This document shows, piece after piece, positions 1,555 to 40,826 of a stretch of 40,826 nt of DNA (position 1 is its first letter; each line of letters opens with the position of its first letter). A model generated the notes under the pieces. The model was not told the origin of the DNA, searched no databases, and was given only the letters and a program-made list of their open reading frames with translations. The position numbers and the translations under genes are program-made. Origin of the DNA: a virus. The stretch is from positions 1 through 40,826 of IMG/VR virus record IMGVR_UViG_3300010397_000031. One strand, 5' to 3'.

Positions 1555-2012
1555 CAGAGCACCGTGTGGCCCTCGCCCACGAGCAGATTCGCCGCGCCCG
1601 TCGTGCCGAAGTCGTGCCCAATCCCGATGGAGACCGAGGTCGTTACCTTGTCAAAAAGAAAGGCCGCGTTGCCGCCGAAGTTGCCGCCGTCGTTGAACTG
1701 CACGGACGTGTCTGGCGGGGCGGGGGATCCCCCGGATGACCCGCTCGACGCCGCCGTGATGCGGCCCTTGGCATCGACCGTGATATTCGTGTTCGTGTAG
1801 CTGCCCGGAACGACCCCCGTGAATGACAGCGTGGCCGATTGCGGACCCGATCCAGGGCCAGCCAGCACGTCTCCGAAGAGCTGCGTAATCCCGCCGCCGC
1901 CTTCCGTGAGCAGCCGGCGAAACCACAGCGCCCATGGCGTCGTGACCATGAGGGACCGCTGATGCGCGATCGGGTCTTGAATGGGCGGGGAGCCGAGCGT
2001 GGAGGTCGCCAT
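1554..2012 (-). CDS. Fibre-associated adaptor or short fibre protein (152 aa)
   Basis: This sits between the gp10-like closure protein and the long fibre, with one-base overlaps on both sides (TAATG at 2012, TGATG at 1554). Residues about 60-95 carry the stretch LSFTGVVPGSYTNTNITVDA followed by KGRITAAS, which is common in phage tail-fibre shafts. The rest is rich in Gly, Ser and Thr. Residues 1-35 (PPIQDPIAHQRSL, ALWFRRLL) could be a head or tail attachment segment. In P22 this position would hold the tail needle, but no long heptad coiled coil is visible, so an adaptor or short fibre is more likely. Confidence 0.6.
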   Translation of the reverse strand: MATSTLGSPPIQDPIAHQRSLMVTTPWALWFRRLLTEGGGGITQLFGDVLAGPGSGPQSATLSFTGVVPGSYTNTNITVDAKGRITAASSGSSGGSPAPPDTSVQFNDGGNFGGNAAFLFDKVTTSVSIGIGHDFGTTGAANLLVGEGHTVL

Positions 2013-3472
2013 TAGCTCATCCCCAGCCCTTGTGAGACCCGCGCGTAGGCGTTCAGCAGATAGACCGGCACACTCGCTGAGGTGCGCACGCGCCAGACGC
2101 GATCCTGTGAGCGACCGAGCAGATGCGCAATCGCCCGCGCGTTGTATTGCCCGAGCGCGCCAATCGTCAGACTGCGTTCCGGCGTGAACGTGTGCGCCGC
2201 GTCATTGCTCCAGGTGAGCGACACGCGCGGATCGGCATCCGCGATCGTGCCCACGCCAGCCTGCAAGTCAATCTGGACCTGATGCCAGAACAGCCATTGC
2301 CGCTGTTTGTTGATGTGCGGCATCGTGCGTTCGCGCACAATCGGCGTGCCGTCATCGGTCGCCAACTCCTGCGACATCTCGTAGACCGTGCCGAGTTCAC
2401 GATCTCCGACCAGATGCTGCCCGAACCCGAACGCATGGCCCGACCAGCGCGAGGCTTGAAAACGGTCCAGGCCCGCATTCCACACGCCGTCTTCGTTCCA
2501 CTGCTGTTCGTTGATGTCGTATTCGAGCGTGGGGCCGGTCGTCGGAAACGTGAACCGCACGCGCGTGTGCCCGTCGATCTGGTAGACCGAGCCGATACAC
2601 TCCTGCAAATCCTGCGTGCGCGCCAGCTTCAACGAAATGGCATAGGTGCTCACTTCGTCCTTGATGAACAGCCCTTCGGAGCGGAGCACAATGGCGTTGC
2701 CATTCGCGCTCTGGCCGATCATCCACAAGGCATCAGCAGCAACGACGGCAGACCACGGCGCGGGCGTGCCGTAGTTGGACACCGCGCCCAATACGGGCTC
2801 GAAGATGCTCAGGCCGCTGGTGGGTTGCCAGACTTCGGTGTTCTGCGTGCCGATCAGCCAGACTTGGCCTTTCAGCTCCACAATCGCGGACAAGTTGTCG
2901 GAGGTAAACTCCGTCTGGATGACGTTCGAGGCATCCCACGTCAGCCCATCATTGGGCGAGGAAATCGACACCTTCGACGTGCCCGCTTCCATGACGAGAA
3001 AGTAGGACGCGCAGTAAATCCCCTGCACCGCATGCTTGGGAAAGCCCGGCGAGGTGATCGGCACGAGCGTGTTCGTGTTGAGCTTGAAGATCCAGCCCTT
3101 GCCAGCGGAGATGACGAGCAGTTGCAAGCCGCCGTGGCCGTTGCTCGCGAGGGACGCGCGCTCATCATCGACGCCGACAAAGCCGCGATCGATGTAGCTT
3201 TCATCCGCTCCGAAGAACTCGTAGAGCCGTGCGCCGAACACGCCGAACACGCGCCCGTCCTGCGAGAACATGGCGCGTTCCGGCCCGTCAAGGCCCGTGT
3301 ATTTAGCCTGAATCCCCGGCCGCGGCTTGAACCAGACCACCGCGGGCGATTTCCCCACGGGCGACTGGATCGTCTCTAGGCCCCAATTCACCAGCGTTTC
3401 GCAGTCGGCCGCGATGGATCGCGCCTGATAGGCGGGGCCGACGAAGCCGGGCAGGGTGATGGTGTCATCCAT
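2012..3472 (-). CDS. P22 gp10-like packaged-DNA stabilisation protein
   Basis: The 486-residue product is close in size to P22 gp10 (472). That protein plugs the portal and tail hub after DNA packaging and forms the base for needle and fibres. Seen here: a start DDTITLPGFVGPAYQARS followed by ADCETLVNW, typical of this family, then repeated blade-like segments such as RVFGVFGARLYEF, LQLLVISAGKGWIF and QVWLIGTQNTEVW, consistent with a beta-propeller-type fold. It lies directly after the gp4-like gene (TAA then ATG with no gap), the same order as in P22. Function is from family and context; the fold is inferred. Confidence 0.85.
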   Translation of the reverse strand: MDDTITLPGFVGPAYQARSIAADCETLVNWGLETIQSPVGKSPAVVWFKPRPGIQAKYTGLDGPERAMFSQDGRVFGVFGARLYEFFGADESYIDRGFVGVDDERASLASNGHGGLQLLVISAGKGWIFKLNTNTLVPITSPGFPKHAVQGIYCASYFLVMEAGTSKVSISSPNDGLTWDASNVIQTEFTSDNLSAIVELKGQVWLIGTQNTEVWQPTSGLSIFEPVLGAVSNYGTPAPWSAVVAADALWMIGQSANGNAIVLRSEGLFIKDEVSTYAISLKLARTQDLQECIGSVYQIDGHTRVRFTFPTTGPTLEYDINEQQWNEDGVWNAGLDRFQASRWSGHAFGFGQHLVGDRELGTVYEMSQELATDDGTPIVRERTMPHINKQRQWLFWHQVQIDLQAGVGTIADADPRVSLTWSNDAAHTFTPERSLTIGALGQYNARAIAHLLGRSQDRVWRVRTSASVPVYLLNAYARVSQGLGMS

Positions 3473-4243
3473 TTACCGACCACCAAAGCCCACAGGGCTA
3501 TCGCTCAGGATGTTGTAGACGCCCGCTTGCGCGGTCAGCGCCGGATCAAGGCCCAAATCGACCATGATCGTGTTGGCCCGCTGGTAGATGGACAGGAACC
3601 GCCGGCAGGCTTTGTCCAGGTCATCGCTCCACGGCGCGCGATAGCGAATCGCGAGCCATTTCGACGCCTCATACGTCAAGGCCGGCTGGGCACCGGGCGG
3701 GAAGTCATACGCATCGGTCAGGCTCGTGAACGTCCGCAGCTGCACGGGCCGATAGAGCACGACGGATGTGGTATTGCCAGATGGCACCGGCCATAGTTGA
3801 ATCGTGGCGAGGCCGCCGGCAAACGTCGTCTGAAAATACAGCCCCGTGAAATACGACGATTGCAAATCCTTCTGCACGATCGACGCATACGCATCGTTGG
3901 TGTAGAGCGCGCGGGTAATCTCAAACGGCTGTGACGTGCTCGTGTCGTAGAGGCCCACACTCGTGATCGAGGTCGGCCGAGAGGTATCGAAATCCCCGCC
4001 GGGGCCAATCGTGTAAGGCCCACTCGTCGGGGTGGACACCCCCGTGCCACCCTTGCCGGCCACGAGCGGGAAGACTTCGCGCGCCGTCACCGGAATCGTC
4101 AGCGGCATCAACGACCACTGATCAAGCACTTGATTGAGGACCGACAAGCCCTGCTGGCCCTGCGTCGCGTCCATGATTTCGCCGGCCGCAAGGACGCCGT
4201 TGATGAGGTAGGCGTCGGTGAGAATGTCTCGGGCCGAGATCAT
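3473..4243 (-). CDS. P22 gp4-like head-closure (tail accessory) protein
   Basis: This 256-residue protein precedes the gp10-like gene as gp4 precedes gp10 in P22, where gp4 docks under the portal after packaging. The N-terminal segment SARDILTDAYLINGVLAAGE with GLSVLNQVLDQWS (about residues 3-45) is the helical pattern typical of these proteins. The C-terminal part holds FPPGAQPALTYEASKWLAIR, also usual for the family. The middle (about 70-170) is an insert rich in Thr and Gly, which makes it longer than P22 gp4 (166). The ATG at 4243 overlaps the previous TGA (ATGA). Confidence 0.8.
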   Translation of the reverse strand: MISARDILTDAYLINGVLAAGEIMDATQGQQGLSVLNQVLDQWSLMPLTIPVTAREVFPLVAGKGGTGVSTPTSGPYTIGPGGDFDTSRPTSITSVGLYDTSTSQPFEITRALYTNDAYASIVQKDLQSSYFTGLYFQTTFAGGLATIQLWPVPSGNTTSVVLYRPVQLRTFTSLTDAYDFPPGAQPALTYEASKWLAIRYRAPWSDDLDKACRRFLSIYQRANTIMVDLGLDPALTAQAGVYNILSDSPVGFGGR

Positions 4244-4569
4244 CGCCGTGCCTCGGGAATGACTGGCACATGCGCCGAGACGGTCTTTTCGTAGTCGGCG
4301 GCTTCTCGCTGCGCCCGTTCGCTCATCCGCAGATCGCTCGCAGCCCGTTCGGCGGCGAGTTGGCCGATCGTTTCTTCGGCCTGTTCAAAGCGATCGAGCG
4401 CATCTTTCGGGTCGTCGCACCAGCCCTGCCCGATCGCCTTGTAATACTCGTCGGAACTCCGCACCACTTTCGTGGTGTGCGCGATCACGCGCGCATCGAC
4501 GCACACGACCTGCCCGTTGGGCAGCTTCATCGCGCGAAACAGCGTGACGGGCGCGTCCATCCAGCTCAT
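4240..4569 (-). CDS. Hypothetical coiled-coil protein (109 aa)
   Basis: The ATG at 4569 (MSWMDAPVTLFRAMK) overlaps the TGA of the methyltransferase gene, which decides the start. Residues about 14-50 look like a small beta domain with VVCVDARVIAHTTK. Residues about 63-100 are charged and helical (DALDRFEQAEETIGQLAAER), a likely coiled coil. No family is recognised. Its place between the modification genes and the gp4-like gene suggests a minor virion or assembly protein, but that is context only. Confidence 0.65.
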   Translation of the reverse strand: MSWMDAPVTLFRAMKLPNGQVVCVDARVIAHTTKVVRSSDEYYKAIGQGWCDDPKDALDRFEQAEETIGQLAAERAASDLRMSERAQREAADYEKTVSAHVPVIPEARR

Positions 4570-5132
4570 GCGCGATACCTCGTCAGCGCGAGCCCGCGCG
4601 GGGTCGGCAGTTTGAGCCACGGTTCAACGAGTCCGTCATCGACGACGGCTTGGAGAGACGCAAAGAACGCCGGCACGCCCGGATAGTCCGTAGGCACCGC
4701 CGTGTCATGAGCGACAATCACGCATCGCGGCGAGGCCCAGCGGTGAAAGTGCCGCACTTCGACCATGCGATCATCCCAGCCGCTATCGACAAACAGCAGA
4801 TCCACGGGCTGCGTCGGTTCCACATGCGCCGCGCGGTTGGTCACGATGGTGACCGGCAGCCCATCGGTGCGCGCCCGCGCCTGTTGGGCCTTCGTTTCGG
4901 CCAGTTCGATCGACACGAGCTGTCCGCGGCCCAGGTCGCGCAACGCAAGGCCGATTTGTTCGGCGGTGTAGCCGACATAGGAGCCGGTTTCGATGACGTA
5001 ATCGGGTTTCAGCGCGCGCACGAGATCGCCCAGGAACGCCGACACGTCGGTTTCCGTGGCCCACGCGTCAGGCGCAGACCAGCGGCCCGGCTCCGGGCAC
5101 TCAGGTCGCGGGGGCAACGCTTCCGCACGCAT
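4566..5132 (-). CDS. Class I SAM-dependent methyltransferase (Methyltransf_24-like)
   Basis: The protein has 188 residues from ATG 5132, ten bases after the previous stop. Motif I is at about 46-57 (VIETGSYVGYTA). The acidic residue after strand 2 is in VSIELAE (E76). DLLFVDSGWDD (111-121) fits motif IV with a likely catalytic or metal-side Asp. VIVAHDTAV follows. This Rossmann layout without a DNA-target domain matches small-molecule or sugar methyltransferases rather than DNA methylases. It lies in the head operon beside a glycosyltransferase and a spike-base-like gene, so methylation of a sugar or head protein is a plausible job. The substrate is inferred. Confidence 0.8.
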   Translation of the reverse strand: MRAEALPPRPECPEPGRWSAPDAWATETDVSAFLGDLVRALKPDYVIETGSYVGYTAEQIGLALRDLGRGQLVSIELAETKAQQARARTDGLPVTIVTNRAAHVEPTQPVDLLFVDSGWDDRMVEVRHFHRWASPRCVIVAHDTAVPTDYPGVPAFFASLQAVVDDGLVEPWLKLPTPRGLALTRYRA

Positions 5133-5142
5133 CGGCAAGCGC

Positions 5143-5400
5143 CTACTGCTGGTAGAGCGCGACCATAAGGGTCGCCGTCGTCGTGGTCGAATTGACGCGC
5201 TTAAAAGTGATCGGCAAGAGCGACCCAGCCACGCACGTAAACTGCGCGACGGTGTTGTCTTCCATGAGCGCGACGACGATGCCGGCCCCACCGACCCACA
5301 GCGCGGTCGGATAGTGGCCATTGATCTTCTCTTGTTCGTCGGTATCGCTCTTGGTGACGGCTCGCGCCGTGTTGTAGCCAGGATTGACAGACTGCGCCAT
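5143..5400 (-). CDS. Head-spike-base-like protein (RCAP_Rcc01079 type)
   Basis: This 85-residue protein starts at ATG 5400, sharing a base with the TGA of the glycosyltransferase gene. Its layout matches my recollection of the spike-base family first seen in the Rhodobacter gene transfer agent: an N-terminal A-x-AVT-x-SD segment (ARAVTKSDT), then ALWVGGAGIVVAL, then FTCVAGSLLPITFKRV, then T-rich TTTTATLMVALY at the end. In the transfer agent this protein anchors capsid head spikes. Here it sits between a glycosyltransferase and a methyltransferase, which suggests the three act on one surface structure. The family call rests on pattern memory, not a search. Confidence 0.6.
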   Translation of the reverse strand: MAQSVNPGYNTARAVTKSDTDEQEKINGHYPTALWVGGAGIVVALMEDNTVAQFTCVAGSLLPITFKRVNSTTTTATLMVALYQQ

Positions 5401-6089
5401 CAGGACACCTCGGCCGGTTCGGGCTGCGTCTCGCCCCACGGCTGCATGAGAAACGGCACGGTGCCGCGCGCAAACACCACCGACCAACCCGTGGCCGTGT
5501 CGTAGTGCGGCCAGACTTCCACGTCCGTCGTATGGCCGAACTGCACGGAGGAATCGCCCCACAACTGCACGCCGGCCTCGCTCAACTTGCGACAGAAATA
5601 CAGATCGTCGTCCCACTGATCGGGCACGAACTGCCCGAGCGCCACATACGGCTTGGGGATCGCCCGCAACGCCGACATGCGCACCAGCAACCCGCCGAAG
5701 GTCGCCGCCGTGAGCGGCACGAGCGGTCCCGGCGGCGGCAGCGTGTCTTTCATCGCGTCGAGTTCGGGCACCGTGCGGTCGAACCACAACGCGCGAAACG
5801 GCGGCTGCCGGCGAAAACTCAGCGGGACCACCGCATCGACGGCCGGATCGTCAAAGCGCCGCAAGAGGCGCGTCAGCGCATCCGGCCCAAACGTCAAATC
5901 GTCGTCGAGAAACCAAATCCACTGGGCCCCGAGCGCCACGGCCTCGTCGATGAGCCCGTTGCGATTGGTCGCGGGCGAACACCCCCGCCCCGTGCGGATC
6001 ACCACACGAGGCGGGAGGTTGAGTTCGCTCACGCACGCCCAGAAGGAGGACCACCGCCCCTGCACGGCGCAGGGAATGGCGATCAACAC
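5400..6089 (-). CDS. Glycosyltransferase (GT-A, GT2-like)
   Basis: In-frame starts near the end of the previous gene (stop at 6100) are TTG 6107, GTG 6089 and TTG 6086. GTG 6089 is chosen because VLIAIPCAVQGRWSSF is the expected first strand; it gives 229 residues. WIWFLDDDLTFGPDALTRLL (residues about 57-76) holds the DDD metal and nucleotide-sugar motif. ATFGGLLVRMSAL and DQWDDDLYFCRKL follow in the acceptor half, as in GT2 enzymes. No transmembrane segment is seen, so it should be a soluble sugar transferase. Its place between a head protein and the spike-base-like gene points to glycosylation of a virion part, though host-surface modification cannot be excluded. Confidence 0.8.
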   Translation of the reverse strand: MLIAIPCAVQGRWSSFWACVSELNLPPRVVIRTGRGCSPATNRNGLIDEAVALGAQWIWFLDDDLTFGPDALTRLLRRFDDPAVDAVVPLSFRRQPPFRALWFDRTVPELDAMKDTLPPPGPLVPLTAATFGGLLVRMSALRAIPKPYVALGQFVPDQWDDDLYFCRKLSEAGVQLWGDSSVQFGHTTDVEVWPHYDTATGWSVVFARGTVPFLMQPWGETQPEPAEVS

Positions 6090-6099
6090 ATCGCAGGGC

Positions 6100-6696
6100 T
6101 CAGCCAAGCGTGACCCCGGCTGCGCACTTGACGCCCCACAGCCCACGCGCCGACAGGAGCGTGATGCTGTTGCCGATCGTGGCCGCGAAGGTCGCCACAT
6201 CGGAGGTCGTCGTGTCGCCGTTGAAGCCGGGGGTATACGTGACGGTGTGCGCCGCCGCCGTATTGGAGTAGATCGTGACTTCCACACCATCGGGGGTTGC
6301 CCCGGTGGGGGAGGCCAACGTCATGGCCGCCGCGGTCGCCTTGTCCAAGAAAATGATCGTGTCCGAGGTCGGCGGCACAATCGCCCCGCTGGCCCCGTAA
6401 CTGACGATGACCTTCTTGTAGAGCGCCGGGTTGGTCGGCCAGCCCTGCTGTGGCGGCGGAAACTCCGTCGCCGTGCCGGTCACGACCGATGCGAGGATGG
6501 GATGGGCCGAGACAATGGACCCGCCCTGTCCGACGCGCTGCACGGGGATGACGGTGCCGTTGGCGGCCCCCGTCTGCACCATGTATTCGCCATCGACCAT
6601 GATCGTCTGGCCGACCGCAAACCCCGTCGCGGACGTGACGTTGATGGACTGATCGCCCGCACCACATGCGGACGCGAGAGTGGTTCGGTTCGCCAT
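6100..6696 (-). CDS. Probable capsid decoration protein (198 aa)
   Basis: The start is ATG 6696, sharing its A with the coat-protein TAA, so translation is probably coupled to coat. The N-terminal half has SINVTSATGFAVGQTIMVDG then EYMVQ and VQRVGQGGSIVSAHP, a small beta-barrel pattern seen in phage head and tail proteins. The C-terminal half (SGAIVPPTSDTIIFLDK, MTLASPT, AAAHTVTYTPGF) resembles a lectin-like or decoration domain. Immediate placement after the major coat gene is typical of decoration proteins. Function is inferred from position and fold pattern. Confidence 0.6.
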   Translation of the reverse strand: MANRTTLASACGAGDQSINVTSATGFAVGQTIMVDGEYMVQTGAANGTVIPVQRVGQGGSIVSAHPILASVVTGTATEFPPPQQGWPTNPALYKKVIVSYGASGAIVPPTSDTIIFLDKATAAAMTLASPTGATPDGVEVTIYSNTAAAHTVTYTPGFNGDTTTSDVATFAATIGNSITLLSARGLWGVKCAAGVTLG

Positions 6697-7970
6697 TAGC
6701 TTGCACCTCCGGCGACGACGCACGCCCAGTCAGGCCGATACGCCAGCCAGCCATAGAAGCAGTCCAGACGGCTGATCTTCTGGTCCGACTGCGCGTTGTA
6801 TTGCCGCACATACCGAGCGCTCCACCCGGTTTCGGCGTCACTGACCATCGCCACGTCGGCACCGGGCAGATCGCTGTCCGCATCGACCATGCCGAGCACG
6901 AACGCTTCCTTGTTGTAGACGAGACCCTGACGGGTCGGCGTCGCCGTCCAAGTGCCCGCGCCGGTCGTGATCGTCGAGCCGAGCGGAATGATCGGCGCGT
7001 TGTTGGCCGGCAGCGCGTCCACGTTGGCGAGCGCGTTGGGAATCGGTCCCGACCCGACCGCGATGAGCGGCGGCTGGAACTGAATCGTCGCGTCGACACC
7101 CGAGGACGTGACCGCTTGCGTCACCGTCAGCTGCATCAACTGACCCGTGGACGTGTAGTTCTGCGGGTTGATTTCGTTGACGTTGGCAATCGTGAACTTG
7201 TCCCCGACCTGATAGGTCGTGGCCGAGCTCGCGTTGCCGTCCGTGACGATGCTCGTCATGCCATCCGCAAACGTCGTCTGGTTGACGAGCGGCGTGAACG
7301 ACGTGGACGAACCAGTCGTGCGCTGCCAGGTGTTCTGGTCGTAATACCAGGCCTCGATGCCCAGCTTTCGGCTCGCGAACAGGCCCGACCGGATTTCCTC
7401 GCTCACCTGTGTCTGTGGGTTGAACGTCGTCGCGTTGTTGCCGACGAGCGTGCCGTGCATGTTGGGCGAGAGGATCGCCACCAGATCGTCATCGGGCACG
7501 GCCACGTTGCGGAGTTTGGTCACCGCATCGAGGTAGGTCTGATACGACGTGGGGGTCGTGCCCGGCGTGCCGACCGAGTGCGCGACGAGCGGCGTGCAGC
7601 GCGTCAGGCCATCGAAATCGATGGTGTTGGCGAGCTGAATCGACGCGGGCTTGATGTAGCGCGAGCGAACTTCTTCGACGGAGAACGTCGCGTCAAACGT
7701 GCTCCACGAAATGCCGATGTTCGCCTGATCGGTGATGTTGAAGCGAACGGTAACGTCGTTGATGCCCTGCTGTTGAAACGCCTGCCCCTTGGTGGTGGCA
7801 TAGCGCTGGGGGAGTCTGAGCGAGAAGCCCGAACCGACTTTGGCACCACCGGCTTTGAAGTCGGCGCTGTATTTCCGAGTGACGTTCGCCCCGAATTTCA
7901 AGGAGTTTTGCGCAATGCGCGAGACCTCCTTGACGACCCAAGTTGGCGTCACGAACGAGTTTGAGGCCAT
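6696..7970 (-). CDS. Major capsid (coat) protein, P22 gp5-like
   Basis: The 424-residue product is near the length of P22 gp5 (430). The N-terminus NSFVTPTWVVKEVSRIAQN, then SLKFGANVTRKYSADF, GSGFSLRLPQRY and VTVRFNITDQANIGISWS are typical of the P22 coat family. The middle insert region and the C-terminal RQYNAQSDQKISRLDCFYGW also fit. It follows the scaffold gene by 14 bases; AGTAGG before the ATG can serve as ribosome binding site. It forms the T=7-type HK97-fold shell by family knowledge. Confidence 0.9.
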   Translation of the reverse strand: MASNSFVTPTWVVKEVSRIAQNSLKFGANVTRKYSADFKAGGAKVGSGFSLRLPQRYATTKGQAFQQQGINDVTVRFNITDQANIGISWSTFDATFSVEEVRSRYIKPASIQLANTIDFDGLTRCTPLVAHSVGTPGTTPTSYQTYLDAVTKLRNVAVPDDDLVAILSPNMHGTLVGNNATTFNPQTQVSEEIRSGLFASRKLGIEAWYYDQNTWQRTTGSSTSFTPLVNQTTFADGMTSIVTDGNASSATTYQVGDKFTIANVNEINPQNYTSTGQLMQLTVTQAVTSSGVDATIQFQPPLIAVGSGPIPNALANVDALPANNAPIIPLGSTITTGAGTWTATPTRQGLVYNKEAFVLGMVDADSDLPGADVAMVSDAETGWSARYVRQYNAQSDQKISRLDCFYGWLAYRPDWACVVAGGAS

Positions 7971-7984
7971 GGGAGCCTACTTCT

Positions 7985-9028
7985 TCAGGCTCGCCGGGCC
8001 TCCCGCGCTTTTCTGTCCCGCTCGTTCATGGCCGCAATGTATTTGGGACCGAACGGCAGGTCTTCCGGCGGGGAGGACTCAGGAGCCATCACCGAAGGTC
8101 TCACCGGCTTAATGAGAGGCTTCGCGTTGGTTTGAGTCAGCACTGTCTCGGGGCCGGATGAAGCCGATGACAGGCGTGCGGTGAGATGGCCGATAGCACG
8201 AGCGGCAGCAATCGGGTCTTTGATAGCCGCCAGGCGTGCCGCATCGTCGGGATGCGTCAAGAGGTGGTCCATCAAATCCGCGCTGAGATGAGGATCGTTC
8301 GCCGTCTCCGTCGCGAGTAGCGCCAGGACGGTGTTGGAATACTGAATCGTGTGCGCCTTTAAGCGCTCATGAAAGCCGGGATGACTTTCCTCCGCGATCT
8401 CCCACGCCGCTTTGACCTGGGTTTCGCGTTCACGCTGCGCGCGGGTCTGTTCGGCGGCCGCTTCGCGTTCCGCAAGGCGTTTGTCCGCAATAAACGCGGC
8501 CATCGCTGCCTGATGCGCGCCATACGGATCGGGCAAACCCGCGGCCTCGAACTCTGCGAGCGTCGGCGCGTCGGGCTCGGACTGATACCGCTGCACGAGC
8601 TGCAAATAGGTCTGGCTGGCTGAGGGTTTCTCGGCGGCGGCAGGCTGTTCGCTCGCCTTGGGCTGTCTCAGGGCGTGCAGTTCCGCTTCGCGCTCATTCG
8701 CGCGTCGTTCAGCTTCTTCGGCGCGGCGTTCGGCGTCGCGCTGTTTGGCAATTGCCGCGTTGATCTTCGCCTGATGGGATTTGCGCGGGTCGCCGTCTGT
8801 CTTGGCCGGTTCAGCGGGCGCTTTCGCCTTGAACGTGCCATCGGGATTGCGCTCACCCGTGGTGACTGCGGCCGGTTCGGTCGTCGTCGGCTTGGCTGGG
8901 TCTGGCGTCTCCGGCGCGTCGGCCTGTTCGGGCTCAGCAAAGCCCGCCGCGGCACGGATGTTAGCTTCCGTGTCGTTGGCCGTGACCGTGACCCGATTCT
9001 CCGTGACCGAATTGATGGCAGATGACAT
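7985..9028 (-). CDS. Scaffolding protein
   Basis: This 347-residue protein lies between portal and coat, the scaffold position in P22. It is highly charged and rich in Ala, Glu and Lys. A disordered N-terminus (about 1-90, PETPDPAKPTTTEPA) is followed by a long coiled coil (about 90-125, RDAERRAEEAERRANEREAE) and a second helical part at about 185-230. The basic C-terminus MNERDRKAREARRA matches the short basic helix that binds coat in P22 gp8. It guides procapsid assembly and leaves before packaging ends, by family knowledge. Confidence 0.8.
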   Translation of the reverse strand: MSSAINSVTENRVTVTANDTEANIRAAAGFAEPEQADAPETPDPAKPTTTEPAAVTTGERNPDGTFKAKAPAEPAKTDGDPRKSHQAKINAAIAKQRDAERRAEEAERRANEREAELHALRQPKASEQPAAAEKPSASQTYLQLVQRYQSEPDAPTLAEFEAAGLPDPYGAHQAAMAAFIADKRLAEREAAAEQTRAQRERETQVKAAWEIAEESHPGFHERLKAHTIQYSNTVLALLATETANDPHLSADLMDHLLTHPDDAARLAAIKDPIAAARAIGHLTARLSSASSGPETVLTQTNAKPLIKPVRPSVMAPESSPPEDLPFGPKYIAAMNERDRKAREARRA

Positions 9029-9045
9029 TAAGTCTGTCTGGCGAC

Positions 9046-9315
9046 CTAAGTTGAGTGATTATCAGTATTCGCGTTGAGCTTGTCAAGCCGACGCAACCGA
9101 ATGCCGTCCCAGCGATAGAGCGTGTGCAGGTCGGCGCTGGCGTAGGTGTTGGGTTTGGCGCTGTGATCGGCAAAGACGATCTCGCCCGATTCGGCGTCTC
9201 GCGATAGACGGCGGTCAATCATCGCCAGCACATGCCGCTGGAGGATGGGCGGCGGTTCGGGCCTGACTCCGCGCGGCGGCAAATTAAGCGTGCGGCGGCG
9301 GGTGGCGTCACCCAT
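9046..9315 (-). CDS. Hypothetical protein between portal and scaffold (89 aa)
   Basis: The ATG at 9315 shares its A with the portal TAA. The product is basic at its N-terminus (DATRRRTLNLPPRG). It then has HVLAMIDRRLSRDAESGEIV and LHTLYRWDGIRLRRLDKL, the second resembling a short beta-hairpin. No family is recognised. Its tight coupling to portal and scaffold suggests a small head-assembly part. Confidence 0.65.
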   Translation of the reverse strand: MGDATRRRTLNLPPRGVRPEPPPILQRHVLAMIDRRLSRDAESGEIVFADHSAKPNTYASADLHTLYRWDGIRLRRLDKLNANTDNHST

Positions 9316-11531
9316 TAGGCCCCAGCCTGATCCGGCGCGGACGCCTGCTGTTCGAGCGCTTGCTGATGCCCCTGTGCGCCCTGTTCGAGCGCGTTTTGCT
9401 GTTGCTGGTCGCCCTGCTGCATCGCCTGTTCATGGGCGACGGCGGCCATGCCCAGCTCGTGCGCGCGATCGTGTTCGGCTTGCGCGTTGTCGTTGGCCTG
9501 CACGCCGAGTCGGGCGCGTTCTTCGAGGAACAGCGCAAGGCGGTCCATCTTCGCGCCCAGTTCGGCCACGGCCAGCTTCGTCTCGTTGTCGGCGCGATGC
9601 TGCTGGAGGTCCGCCGCGGTCTGGATCTGCGTGCGGTGCGTCTCGGCCGTCTCTTGGAGCTGCGTTTTCTTGAGGTCCGCCAGATTCTTGTTCGCGAGTT
9701 CCTGCAACTGCTGAATCGTCGCGTGCATCTGCGCGATCTGCGCTTGCGCGGCCGGCGGCAGCCCGTTGGGATCGTCCACGCCAGGCGGCCTAATCCTCGC
9801 CGCAATGGCATCGGCCTGGGGAATGTCCATCGACTCGACCCACAGGTCCGCGAACCGGGGCACCAGTTCCGGCGCGGCTTGCGCCAAGGCGTTCATGCCC
9901 GCGAATGTCTCGGCCTTGAGCGTCTGTTGCGACTTGCCGACGTTGACGATGACGCCGTATTGCCCCTGTTTGAGCATGTGCGCCATCGGCGGCTTGGCCT
10001 GCTGCATCTGCGGCGGGGCCTGCGAGGCGGGTATCGGCTGCCCGTTGGCGTCTTTCACGAACGCCTGGTTGAGCATGACCCAATCTTCACTGCCGTCTTT
10101 GCCCACGATGCGCTCGACGCGGCCGGGACGGTCATAGACAGACGGCAGCAAGTCCACGACGACAATGCCAGTCTGTCGAATCGCCCGCGCATGGTGCGTC
10201 AGCCAGCCCGACGTGCCCTGCTGCGAGGCCATCTTGAGTTCTTCGATGGCCTTCCCGCTGCGATCATTCGGATTGACGTGGCCGAGCGCCGCATCGGGCA
10301 CGCCCGTCGTGGAGCGGATGAAGTTCGTGAACAACGAGATCATCTCGGCAAAGGCTTGAATCGCCGGTTCGTCGTTGTTGCGCGTCGGTGGCGGCAGGAT
10401 TTGTTGGCCTGTCGCCTCAGTCGTCGCGTTGTATTCGAGGTAGGGGAAATTGCGCGTGTTCGCCTGGTTCCACCACGCTTCGTAGTTCTGCAACTGGCCC
10501 GCCACGGCGAGCCACGGCGACACAGACGCGAGGCCGATCTTCTCGGCCGCGCTCGACACCATGTAATTGAGCATCCGGCAGGGCGACATCGCCGGTTGAA
10601 CCATGCCTTCAACGATGGTGGTACCGCCGACGTTGTATTTGTTGCCCGTGTCCTCGATGATCGGAATGAAGTGGCCGTCCCATTCCTGGGGCTTCTCCAG
10701 CCACTCGATGCCGTTCATCTTGGCCCACTGGATCGTGCGCGTGTAGACGGTGCGCCCGTCCACGGTCTTACTGGGCGTGTAGGTGGCCCACCAGTATTCC
10801 GCGATGCGGTAGGTCTTGCCGGCCTTGCCTTCGATGACCCAGTGCTTCGCGTTGTCGCCCAGCCCCTCCATGAGTTCGCTGTCGGAGGCGTTCGCGAGCT
10901 TGGAGTCACCGTATTCGCGCTTGTAGTCGGCTTCGAGAAGGTCCGAGGTGACGAACGTGTAGTCCGGCTCCCAAAACCCACCTTGGGCCTGCCATTTCGG
11001 CAGCGGGTCGCGGTAGACCGAAAAGCCGTTTTCGATGGGCTCGATGCAGATGATCTGATCGAGGCCGGTTTGCTCGTTCGCGTAGGACTTGTTGACGCGC
11101 CAGTAGCCGCGGCCACAGCCGACCATCCGCTGGAAGCCCCACGAATACACATCATCGGCGTGACTATCCGTCTGGATGGCCCGAATGAGCCCGCCAATCA
11201 CTTCCGCCGTGTCTTTGTTCGCCTTGCCGTCGCGAGCGGTGATCGTGATCGCCAGATCGGCGTCATGCTCCTGGTTGACCACTTGCGCGATGGGCTGGTC
11301 CAGCGTCCGCATGGTGAGCATGGGACGGGCCGGCACCGCGGGTGAACCCGACGAAGCATTGGCCGGCAGCCCGGCGCGGCTCAGTTTGGCGTCTTCGGTC
11401 CACTGGTCGCCGGCTTGGAAACGCAGGGCTTCGAGTTCCCTGGCACGTTGGTCGTGCTCGGTCTCGGCAATGAACTTGAACTGCGCGAGGGCAGTAGCGT
11501 GCAGGTCTGTCAGGCTGTCTTGGGAAGCCAC
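9315..11531 (-). CDS. Portal protein, P22 gp1-like
   Basis: The 738-residue product is close to P22 gp1 (725), the twelve-fold ring through which DNA enters and leaves the head. A TGA three codons upstream makes GTG 11531 the first possible start. Family-like segments include LEALRFQAGDQWTEDAKL, PMLTMRTLDQPIAQVVNQ (about 66-85), QRMVGCGRGYWRVNKSY (about 129-145) and RSTTGVPDAALGHVNPNDRS (about 410-430). The C-terminal 150 residues are helical and very rich in Gln and Ala (QQGDQQQQNALEQGAQGHQQ), matching the barrel helices of long P22-type portals. Confidence 0.9.
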   Translation of the reverse strand: MASQDSLTDLHATALAQFKFIAETEHDQRARELEALRFQAGDQWTEDAKLSRAGLPANASSGSPAVPARPMLTMRTLDQPIAQVVNQEHDADLAITITARDGKANKDTAEVIGGLIRAIQTDSHADDVYSWGFQRMVGCGRGYWRVNKSYANEQTGLDQIICIEPIENGFSVYRDPLPKWQAQGGFWEPDYTFVTSDLLEADYKREYGDSKLANASDSELMEGLGDNAKHWVIEGKAGKTYRIAEYWWATYTPSKTVDGRTVYTRTIQWAKMNGIEWLEKPQEWDGHFIPIIEDTGNKYNVGGTTIVEGMVQPAMSPCRMLNYMVSSAAEKIGLASVSPWLAVAGQLQNYEAWWNQANTRNFPYLEYNATTEATGQQILPPPTRNNDEPAIQAFAEMISLFTNFIRSTTGVPDAALGHVNPNDRSGKAIEELKMASQQGTSGWLTHHARAIRQTGIVVVDLLPSVYDRPGRVERIVGKDGSEDWVMLNQAFVKDANGQPIPASQAPPQMQQAKPPMAHMLKQGQYGVIVNVGKSQQTLKAETFAGMNALAQAAPELVPRFADLWVESMDIPQADAIAARIRPPGVDDPNGLPPAAQAQIAQMHATIQQLQELANKNLADLKKTQLQETAETHRTQIQTAADLQQHRADNETKLAVAELGAKMDRLALFLEERARLGVQANDNAQAEHDRAHELGMAAVAHEQAMQQGDQQQQNALEQGAQGHQQALEQQASAPDQAGA

Positions 11532-37794: not shown

Positions 37795-38133
37795 TTAGGT
37801 CGCGACGTATTCGCCTTCCACGACGATGGTCAACGACGATCCGGCACTGGCTAGCCCCGACAAGAAGTCCGTTGAGACCATCTTGAGGGCGCAGTAGTAG
37901 TCGAAGGAGCTGTTGGCCGCGACCGAGTAGCCCTTGAACAGTTCCGTGCCGCCCGTCGAGCCGCCCGTGCCGCCGACGTAGAGCGTGAACGTGACCGCTC
38001 CAGACGTCACGTTCGCGACGTGGATGTGCCGAATCACGATGTAGACAGCCGCGTTTGGCGGCGTGTAGATGTCGGCGGCCGATGACGCCAAATAACTTGG
38101 ACCTGCGATACGCTTGATTGTGCCGGAAGCCAT
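37795..38133 (-). CDS. Virion structural protein (112 aa)
   Basis: AAGGAG precedes ATG 38133, which shares a base with the HNH stop. The product (ASGTIKRIAGPSYLASSAAD, IYTPPNAAVYIVIRHIHVAN, VTFTLYVGGTGGSTGGTELF) is a small beta-sandwich type common among phage fibre or decoration proteins. Its first nine residues are repeated in the stub at 38661, on the other side of the HNH gene, so this gene was interrupted near its 5' end and given a new start. Confidence 0.65.
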   Translation of the reverse strand: MASGTIKRIAGPSYLASSAADIYTPPNAAVYIVIRHIHVANVTSGAVTFTLYVGGTGGSTGGTELFKGYSVAANSSFDYYCALKMVSTDFLSGLASAGSSLTIVVEGEYVAT

Positions 38134-38624
38134 TAATGGTTCTCCTTGTTAGCTGACCAGCGCGCAACCGCTCCTGCGCTTCCAATAGCCGCGAAGTGTG
38201 CGCGCTGGGCGACAGCCAAACGCTTCAGCGTGGCTGCGATTCGATCTCGACGTTCTTGTGGCACTTGACGACCCTTATTAGCAGCGGATATCTTTGCGCG
38301 CACTTCTGCGGTTCGAGGCACGCCTACATGGGCAGCCGCGATCGCTGCCTTATGCTCAGCGGTAATAGCACGGCCAGTGCTCGCCAACGACATCCGAGCG
38401 CGGGTATCGTCAGAACGCACAGCGCCTCTCTGATGAAGCGTCGAGTGACAACCATGGTGCATCGCAGCGAGATTGCCAGGCACATTATTTGAATCGTCCT
38501 CATCTATATGGTAAACATGGAACGACGATTCAAACTCTATGTCGGCTCCGCAACCGAAACACCTGTATGGTCCTGGTCCATTGTTTGCGAAGAATACCTC
38601 GCGGTGTATTTGCCGCTTAGGCAT
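38133..38624 (-). CDS. HNH homing endonuclease with NUMOD3-like repeats (163 aa)
   Basis: Residues about 20-66 hold an HNH core: YRCFGCGADIEFESSFHVYH, then DEDDSNNVPGNLAAMHHGCH, with two Cys, the H-x-D/E-x-N spacing and a final HHGCH. Residues about 70-135 have DNA-binding repeats of the NUMOD3 kind (ITAEHKAAIAAAHVGVPRTA, EVRAKISAANKGRQVPQE). The ATG lies inside a short stub frame and the stop overlaps the next start (TAATG), so the gene replaced the first codons of its host gene neatly. It cuts unoccupied alleles by family knowledge. Confidence 0.85.
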   Translation of the reverse strand: MPKRQIHREVFFANNGPGPYRCFGCGADIEFESSFHVYHIDEDDSNNVPGNLAAMHHGCHSTLHQRGAVRSDDTRARMSLASTGRAITAEHKAAIAAAHVGVPRTAEVRAKISAANKGRQVPQERRDRIAATLKRLAVAQRAHFAAIGSAGAVARWSANKENH

Positions 38625-39218: not shown

Positions 39219-40826
39219 TTATGGGAGTCCGTAGAGACTGAAAATGGAACCGTTGACGAATGTGCTAGAGCCCAGCGTGAATCTCAATTTCGTGATGGCC
39301 GCAGATGACTTCCATAGGCCGCCCATCACTTCTGTTCCCATAATCTGAACGGCTCGACCATAGCGGAATGCGGTTCCGACATGCATTTTGGGACCGATCG
39401 GCGTGGAGTATCCTGGGAACTTGATAGTTGTCGCTCCAGCGCCGTTGGAATTGACACTCGTGCCGCAGGCATAGCCAGCGACGTTTCCATTCGCGGTCGA
39501 GACGATGTTGCTGGCCGCGGCCACGCCTTCATAGCCTCCGATGACCTGTGTGCCGCTGTAATTGGCTCCAGAATCATCATTGAACTGCACGTAGAATCCG
39601 ATGTCGCCAACGCTTGCATTGACACGCGCATAGACTTCCACAGCTAGATGCGTGAAGGTCTGCGGAATATTTGTGAACTCGACAATCGCCGTATTGTTTG
39701 CCGTTCTAACCGTGGAGATGAGTCGCACCACGGTTGGAGCATCGACGGTGCCTGTAATTTCGATCCGTGCGCCGCCTTCAATTTCTAGAATGACGCCAGC
39801 CGCAATCTCCAGCGATTCCGGAATCACCCACCCATTGTTCGTCGTGACCGTCGTATTCGCGGTGACGACGATAGGCACGGCCGTGGCGCCCGATCCGGCC
39901 GGTGTTGAATACACGCCATTGCCGTTCAGAAACCGACTGGAGTCACCAGGGAGCACCGGAGCGAGCCCTGGTTGGCTAGACGTGACAACCAGCGGCGTGT
40001 TGATCCCTTGAGTGAACGCCGAGTCGCCGTCTTCGCCATCGAGCCCTGGAGGCCCTGGTCGTCCAGCCGCGCCAGGCGCCCCTGTCGCGCCTGCGGGGCC
40101 AGCCGGCCCCATTGCGCCCGGCCACCCATCAAGGCCATCGTCGCCATCGACGCCCGGAACGCCGATGCCCGCTGGGCCAGCCGGGCCTTGCGCCCCAGCT
40201 GAACCAGACGGCCCAGGTGGCCCAGGAATCGGCCAACTATCAGCGTCTTCGCCGGCAGGGCCTGGTGGCCCGATCTGGCCGCTGGTGCCGGCTCCGATCG
40301 CGGCTGACGCCAGCAGGCCCGTGTCATCGATCACGACCGCATAGGTTTGTGCGGCCGGGGCCGCAATCGCCGAGAGCGTGGTGTCGCCGGTGACATCGAG
40401 GTCGCCGTAAATGGCAACCGTGCCGTCGTCGATGAGCGTGTGCGGACTGCCATCGAGACCAAAGCCCACCGCGAGACTGGCATTCACGGTCATCGCTTGG
40501 CCGTGCGCTTCGGCATAGCGGCCCGTCACCGCATTGCCGCTACCAGCAATAAGATTGTCGGAGCCGTCAACCGTGTGCGCGTCGCCCGTCAGCAGGTTCC
40601 GGCTGGACGTGGATGTCGCGGGCTCGGCGGTGTAGTGCGGCACGACCTCCACGGTGGCTGAGGCCGTGGACCCGCGCGCCCGCACCGCGAAGCGCGTGCC
40701 CGTCTCAAAGACGGAAGGGACCGGAAACACGTCATGCATCACGGCCCCGCCGCTGTCATTCGCCCCTGACGCCATGCGCAGCGACGTAAACGCGACTTCA
40801 CTCCCAGCGGCCCCGACGCCGAAATC
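39219..40826 (-). CDS. Collagen-containing tail fibre, C-terminal half
   Basis: This is residues from about 479 to 1012 of the fibre that begins at 1554; the last 123 bases repeat 1-123. After the fourth beta repeat come YadA-like head motifs ([35 protein letters not shown], about 562-605). A Gly-X-Y collagen-like stretch with short breaks follows at about 662-745 ([20 protein letters not shown]). The C-terminal domain from about 843 ([20 protein letters not shown] ... [19 protein letters not shown]) is a beta-sandwich tip common in phage fibres and likely the receptor-binding part. This tip is more AT-rich than the shaft, consistent with exchange. Confidence 0.85.
40704..40826. repeat. Terminal direct repeat, right copy
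   Basis: Identical to bases 1-123; see the left copy. It should be trimmed when the circle is closed. Confidence 0.95.

Follow-up and report, generated by a model that had tools for sequence, protein, structure and literature searches.

A soluble glycosyltransferase (GT) and, in part of the genomes, a methyltransferase (MT) are encoded beside the decoration-type protein (deco) in P22-like head operons, and we consider it about an even chance (probability roughly 0.5) that they constitute an accessory, swappable module for virion glycosylation, interleaved with the gene of an independent head spike base protein (SB). The DNA analyzed, here called the window, is a whole IMG/VR virus record of 40,826 bases, whose late genes are all on the minus strand in the order terL, portal, small gene, scaffold, P22-type coat, deco, GT, SB, MT, a gene for a 109-aa protein, gp4-like adaptor and gp10-like head closure protein. 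A first-pass annotation had described the three genes GT, SB and MT and regarded them as one cassette that builds a glycosylated and methylated capsid spike. What it had observed was confirmed, and its interpretation was partly supported.

The three genes occupy positions 4566-6089, right after the coat and deco genes: GT at 5400..6089 (229 aa), SB at 5143..5400 (85 aa) and MT at 4566..5132 (188 aa), all on the minus strand. GT starts with GTG, with a TTG at 6107 as a possible alternative start, and overlaps SB by 1 base (TGATG), whereas SB and MT are separated by 10 bases; coordinates and sequence thus agree with the arrangement reported before. The head module is P22-like, with a PF11651 coat protein (6696..7970, minus strand; 5.6e-22, 78.6 bits versus a cut-off of 24; phrog_283, 4.8e-47) that has a scaffold-like protein and the portal upstream. 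The scaffold-like protein (7985..9028, minus strand) was recognized by its position between portal and coat and its conservation in the relatives, where the portal-scaffold-coat order is kept. The 109-aa protein next after MT (4240..4569, minus strand; phrog_26939, 0.0055) is a small head-operon protein conserved among the relatives, whether the enzymes are present or not. It is followed by the gp4-like head-tail adaptor (3473..4243, minus strand; phrog_12985, 2.4e-26; weak match to the SU10 adaptor PF24175, 0.003, below the cut-off) and the gp10-like stabilization or head closure protein (2012..3472, minus strand; phrog_578, 1.9e-66). The tight spacing of GT, SB and MT was considered as a sign of coupling and rejected, as the remaining junctions of the head operon are equally tight: coat and deco overlap, as do the MT stop and the start of the 109-aa gene (ATGA) and the 109-aa gene and the adaptor, 10 bases separate deco from GT, and the adaptor and gp10 genes abut. 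Since every pair of neighbours between coat and gp10 overlaps or is at most ~10 bases apart, a three-gene cassette is not defined by its spacing. The gene order makes late expression of GT and MT together with the head proteins likely, as had been proposed. The dN/dS values between the window and L114 were ~0.13 for GT, ~0.13 for SB and ~0.15 for MT; as these are near the 0.10 of the coat gene, we conclude that both enzymes are maintained by purifying selection.

GT matched PF00535 with 34.5 bits (cut-off 23.3, E 2.5e-8). Its residues D62, D64, D162 and H186 were invariant among nine GT relatives, showing that the DDD motif on which the initial assignment as a GT2-like enzyme was based is real. 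The protein has the DxD motif, the catalytic-base Asp/Glu and the metal-binding His of GT-A/GT2 enzymes, and GT-A folds headed its structural matches. The AlphaFold model (pLDDT 85) is a compact single GT-A domain. The closest solved structure was A197 of the virus STIV (PDB 2c0n; Foldseek E 4e-10, sequence profile 6e-4), and the next fold matches were collagen galactosyltransferases, which modify proteins, and mimivirus R699. The GT relatives fall in phrog_1574, which the window GT itself matches weakly. STIV requires A197 and has a glycosylated major capsid protein, although the substrates of the enzyme are unproven (PMC10551542). It resembles GT in being a minimal viral GT-A enzyme, in this case from a virus with a glycosylated capsid protein, but differs in that STIV is an archaeal virus with an unrelated capsid and in an identity to GT of only ~14%. 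We know of no methyltransferase partner of A197. Among 50,697 phage records, tblastn gave no match to the GT and MT of the window.

The product of the second gene is, judged by profile searches and predicted structure, a spike base of the Rcc01079 family, in agreement with the first assignment of the 85-residue protein. It exceeded the curated cut-off of the NCBIfam model NF048002, 'spike base protein, RCAP_Rcc01079 family' (44.8 versus 28 bits, E 1.1e-11); a search with the single sequence reached Rcc01079 at E 0.011, and a profile of 15 viral sequences at E 5.3e-8. With the AlphaFold model (pLDDT 77), Foldseek ranked the RcGTA structure 6tb9 first (E 8e-5, TM 0.68) and the capsid spike base of Carin-1, a podophage of Cobetia marina, second (PDB 8cjz chain h, TM 0.63). 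SB and Rcc01079 share the predicted jelly-roll fold and an aligned TKSDT-type N-terminal segment. The RcGTA spike base is a pentamer on the fivefold vertices and carries the fibre Rcc01080 (PMC7296036); by homology, SB would form a pentamer with the jelly-roll fold, anchored through its N-termini to the fivefold vertices of the capsid and normally serving as a fibre socket. The RcGTA differs in that Rcc01079 is paired with the Leu-Gly-repeat fibre Rcc01080 (PMC7296036), whereas SB in the window is flanked by GT and MT. A simple pattern scan for an RcGTA-type fibre with an alternating hydrophobic N-terminus returned nothing but a spurious ORF on the plus strand; sockets with other sequences may exist. 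A podophage spike base with a solved structure thus already exists in Carin-1, which was described as T7-like (PMC11476376). The Rcc01079-type family is labelled 'tail fiber' in PHROGs, and likewise as a tail fibre in a GenBank record. A correct part list matters here, and the spike base is to be annotated as a head protein.

We followed the neighbours of GT in 15 distinct contigs (GT identity at least 36%, window counted) obtained from a GT-profile scan and the coat loci. Deco was the immediate upstream gene of GT, within a P22-like head operon, in 15 of 15; an opposite-strand HNH gene lies between the two in L091/L125 and L122. SB was next after GT in eight contigs (window, L114, L115, L026, L116, L028, L121 and L122), three genes away in L120 and after the adaptor in L123 and L124, and none was found in L117. 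MT was next in the window, L114, L115, L026 and L116, and a different PF13578-type enzyme followed GT in L119 and L120; MT was missing from L117, L121, L122, L123 and L124, five distinct GT loci whose downstream sequence is long enough. Of the three-gene order sought in other genomes, the GT-SB part, behind deco, was recovered in eight contigs; SB is not next in the rest, and MT is optional.

MT itself is a class I SAM methyltransferase, as first annotated: it matched PF13578 (Methyltransf_24) with 39.8 bits (Pfam cut-off 26.3, E 8.9e-10), and its profile matched bacterial O-methyltransferases in the PDB, suggesting an O-methyltransferase-like enzyme. About half of the 15 GT contigs have a methyltransferase, and these come from unrelated families. 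The forms found with GT were the PF13578 type of the window, a second PF13578 type, in MW202573 a PF08241 type encoded upstream of GT, and in MW202691 what is probably a fusion to the C-terminus of GT. An obligate GT-MT pair was considered, as the two genes co-occurred perfectly in the 13 records of a first survey, and was rejected; the GT-centred scan turned up GT loci without MT, and we therefore regard MT as optional.

To summarize the distribution of the three genes, coat-anchored loci were scored for SB, GT and MT. Of the 67 scorable loci, 40 had SB without either enzyme, 19 had none of the three, five had all three, one (a truncated contig) had GT and MT without SB, and two had GT alone. 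SB was thus present in 40 of 59 GT-negative relatives, a frequency inflated by the fact that part of the loci entered through the SB search. The enzyme-bearing relatives come nearly all from uncultured DNA, and many of their contigs are truncated. Mapping the GT label on the coat tree requires seven changes, and the closest sisters of the GT-positive L030 and the window are the GT-negative L024 and L025, close kin of the window that have SB and neither enzyme. MT changed with GT in four of five independent contrasts and in none against it, with five contrasts being too few for significance; SB does not follow GT. The position of SB also shifts between genomes; some have it between portal and scaffold, others behind gp4. 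A three-gene GT-SB-MT unit was rejected on the survey and the tree, and the proposal of one cassette that makes a modified spike was not supported, given the relatives that have SB without the enzymes and the GT without SB in L107, L109 and L117. We conclude that SB is a head gene shared by many of these phages and independent of both enzymes. A host could not be assigned from prophages: none turned up in the SB scan, and coat matches occurred only in four metagenome-bin contigs and were too weak.

The gene that stays with GT is deco (198 aa, 6100..6696, minus strand), which keeps its place next after coat throughout the group. It had no Pfam family over the cut-off and no PDB match, its likely role as a decoration or fibre-type protein is read from its position, and no GT-specific feature was identified in it. 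Pairwise identities of GT correlated more with those of deco (0.65) than with those of coat (0.35; 55 non-independent pairs). In the loci with SB, the GT-SB correlation was 0.83 versus 0.79 for GT-deco (the same 36 non-independent pairs); since the GT identities correlate as well with SB as with deco, linkage alone could explain that these genes travel together. L121 shows a replacement, in which GT and deco changed together and coat did not: its identity to the window is 79% for coat, 33% for deco and 37% for GT. In L024, an HNH endonuclease gene stands in the place of GT, and SB is retained.

Genes of the same GT superfamily (phrog_1574) were also found between capsid and adaptor genes outside this set, namely in the GenBank records MW202573, MW202691 and MW202711 from Manatee Spring and in L107 and L109. 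The order is coat, small protein, GT, small gene and adaptor in L107 and L109, both without SB; coat, 78-aa protein, methyltransferase, GT, small gene and adaptor in MW202573; coat, HNH gene, 68-aa protein, GT with a methyltransferase-like C-terminus and tail accessory factor in MW202691; and capsid, 100-aa protein, GT and tail tubular A in MW202711, which we take as T7-like because of its annotated tail tubular protein A. The statement that such enzymes are normally kept with early genes therefore fails for this GT family. MW202573, an uncultured P22-like phage, resembles the window in having a methyltransferase and an A197-like GT between coat and tail adaptor, but its methyltransferase is of the PF08241 type and precedes GT, and its 78-aa protein showed no similarity to spike bases. 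The 78-aa protein and the 68-aa protein of MW202691 were both considered as spike bases, which was not supported. In MW202691 (L111, 4872-6149), an A197-like GT and a C-terminal class I methyltransferase-like region form a single protein of 425 aa. With Pfam, the match to a methyltransferase is weak (0.0035), and the fusion is only probable because a profile comparison of this C-terminus with the window MT gave no significant match.

In the reading that we favour, SB is a structural head protein separate from the enzyme module. GT would be cytosolic, made late with the head proteins, and would most likely use a nucleotide-sugar of the host to glycosylate a head protein exposed on the surface, with deco as the first candidate for the acceptor and coat or spike next. 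MT, where present, would act after GT and cap the sugar by O-methylation, and the outcome would be a glycan coat specific to the phage, which would alter or mask the particle surface and from which the phage may benefit. We favour virion glycosylation because GT follows deco in all 15 contigs and because its best match, A197, comes from a virus with a glycosylated capsid protein. The adjacency may also reflect an insertion hot spot, since HNH genes share that junction in L024, L091 and L122. Glycosylation of phage-particle proteins is known from few systems, chiefly mycobacteriophages. Their GTs (Freeman et al. 2023) glycosylate capsid and tail-tube proteins and shield the particle, as cited in PMC11256854 and PMC12619734. 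The likeness lies in the phage-encoded GTs; the GT genes of Maravista, a relative of the glycosylated Che8, lie near the genome 3' end and not in a P22-like head operon, and no spike base accompanies them.

A late modification of host surface glycans (LPS or capsule), which might for instance keep progeny from binding to debris or block superinfection, is the strongest rival; we hold it to be unlikely. Phage GTs are known in serotype conversion (as cited in PMC12619734), the L072 methyltransferase, of the second PF13578 type, reaches the Pfam cut-off of rhamnosyl O-methyltransferase/CmcI, GT is weakly similar to GlfT1, far below the cut-off, and the turnover of GT variants would be expected if they tracked host glycans. 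However, no flippase or GtrA/B-type partner lies beside GT and MT, GT is modelled as one compact domain, and the placement beside deco is constant over a wide range of phages. Glucosylation of modified DNA bases by GT is very improbable. The match to phrog_842 (beta-glucosyl-HMC-alpha-glucosyltransferase) is weak (7e-4) and spans only ~40 residues around the DDD motif, and a distant GT relative does lie between primase and helicase in HTVC027P, but the GT gene is located in the head operon, and DNA modification was rejected as the window and four relatives have no gene of the thymidylate-synthase/hydroxymethylase type (PF00303).

Two further alternatives concern the linkage of the genes. That GT and MT are unlinked cargo, independent morons with unrelated substrates at an HNH-prone deco/SB junction, appears doubtful. 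It would account for the HNH genes at this junction and after coat in MW202691, for the five GT loci without MT and for the different MT families, but not readily for the joint presence or absence of GT and MT in the 13 surveyed records, for their concerted changes on the tree or for the probable fusion. The version with GT, SB and MT as one functional cassette, whose specific acceptor would be the spike (SB itself or a fibre attached to it), is possible but disfavoured, because SB occurs independently of the enzymes and does not track them, and we give it little credence. The recurring deco-GT-SB order, the 1-base overlap of GT and SB and their identity correlation speak for it; it is countered by the wide occurrence of SB without GT, by the SB of the enzyme-free L024, which is 85% identical to that of the window versus 68% for the enzyme-bearing L030, by the absence of SB or its distance from GT in L107, L109, L117, L120 and L123, and by the lack of a credible RcGTA-type fibre N-terminus in the simple scan.

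An extension of the virion-glycosylation reading, which we put forward only tentatively, is that deco-GT(-MT) is exchanged with the help of HNH genes, so that changing GT and MT types would give each lineage of P22-like environmental phages its own capsid sugar coat. If true, such a head-glycan locus would correspond, on the virion, to serotype switching and would lie next to a head-spike system that is independent of it. As for the main reading, a compact A197-like GT follows deco in many environmental phages of the P22-like type and, in one T7-like genome, the capsid gene; if this enzyme does glycosylate virions, such glycosylation would be common in podoviruses and open to direct testing, with consequences for the stability of the particle, for adsorption and for the recognition of phage particles.

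The window also encodes a tail-fibre-like protein with a collagen Gly-X-Y stretch (39219-40775, minus strand; PF01391, 2.2e-10). It was considered as a GT acceptor in view of the collagen-galactosyltransferase folds and rejected, as the collagen repeat is absent from the other GT-positive genomes searched. An HNH/homing endonuclease-like gene lies within the late tail/ejection region (38133-38624, minus strand). HNH genes opposite in strand to the head genes were seen at the deco/GT or deco/SB junction in L024 (9877-10455, minus strand), L091 (10150-10674, minus strand) and L122 (4480-4959, minus strand), the last called by sequence likeness only.

Additional glycosyltransferase genes were observed in several genomes. 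L121 has a second, divergent one farther down the same late region (8807-9541). L107 (1938-2906 and 9587-10345) and L109 (2287-3216 and 9601-10329), P22-like phages from a bin named Bathyarchaeota, have two GT genes each, one before the terminase and one after coat. L032, which has no GT after deco, encodes a different phrog_1574-type GT between terminase and portal (3556-4260). Two spike-base genes occur in a single head operon in L055, L056, L062 and L065, with both copies after deco, and also in L032 and L100. In L012, L052, L058, L060, L066 and L068, the spike-base gene lies between portal and scaffold and not after coat. Directly after spike-base genes, L005 (316-1443), L004 (6246-8204) and L009 (1258-2100) encode fibre-like proteins with the N-terminal domain of deco, which are candidate spike fibres.
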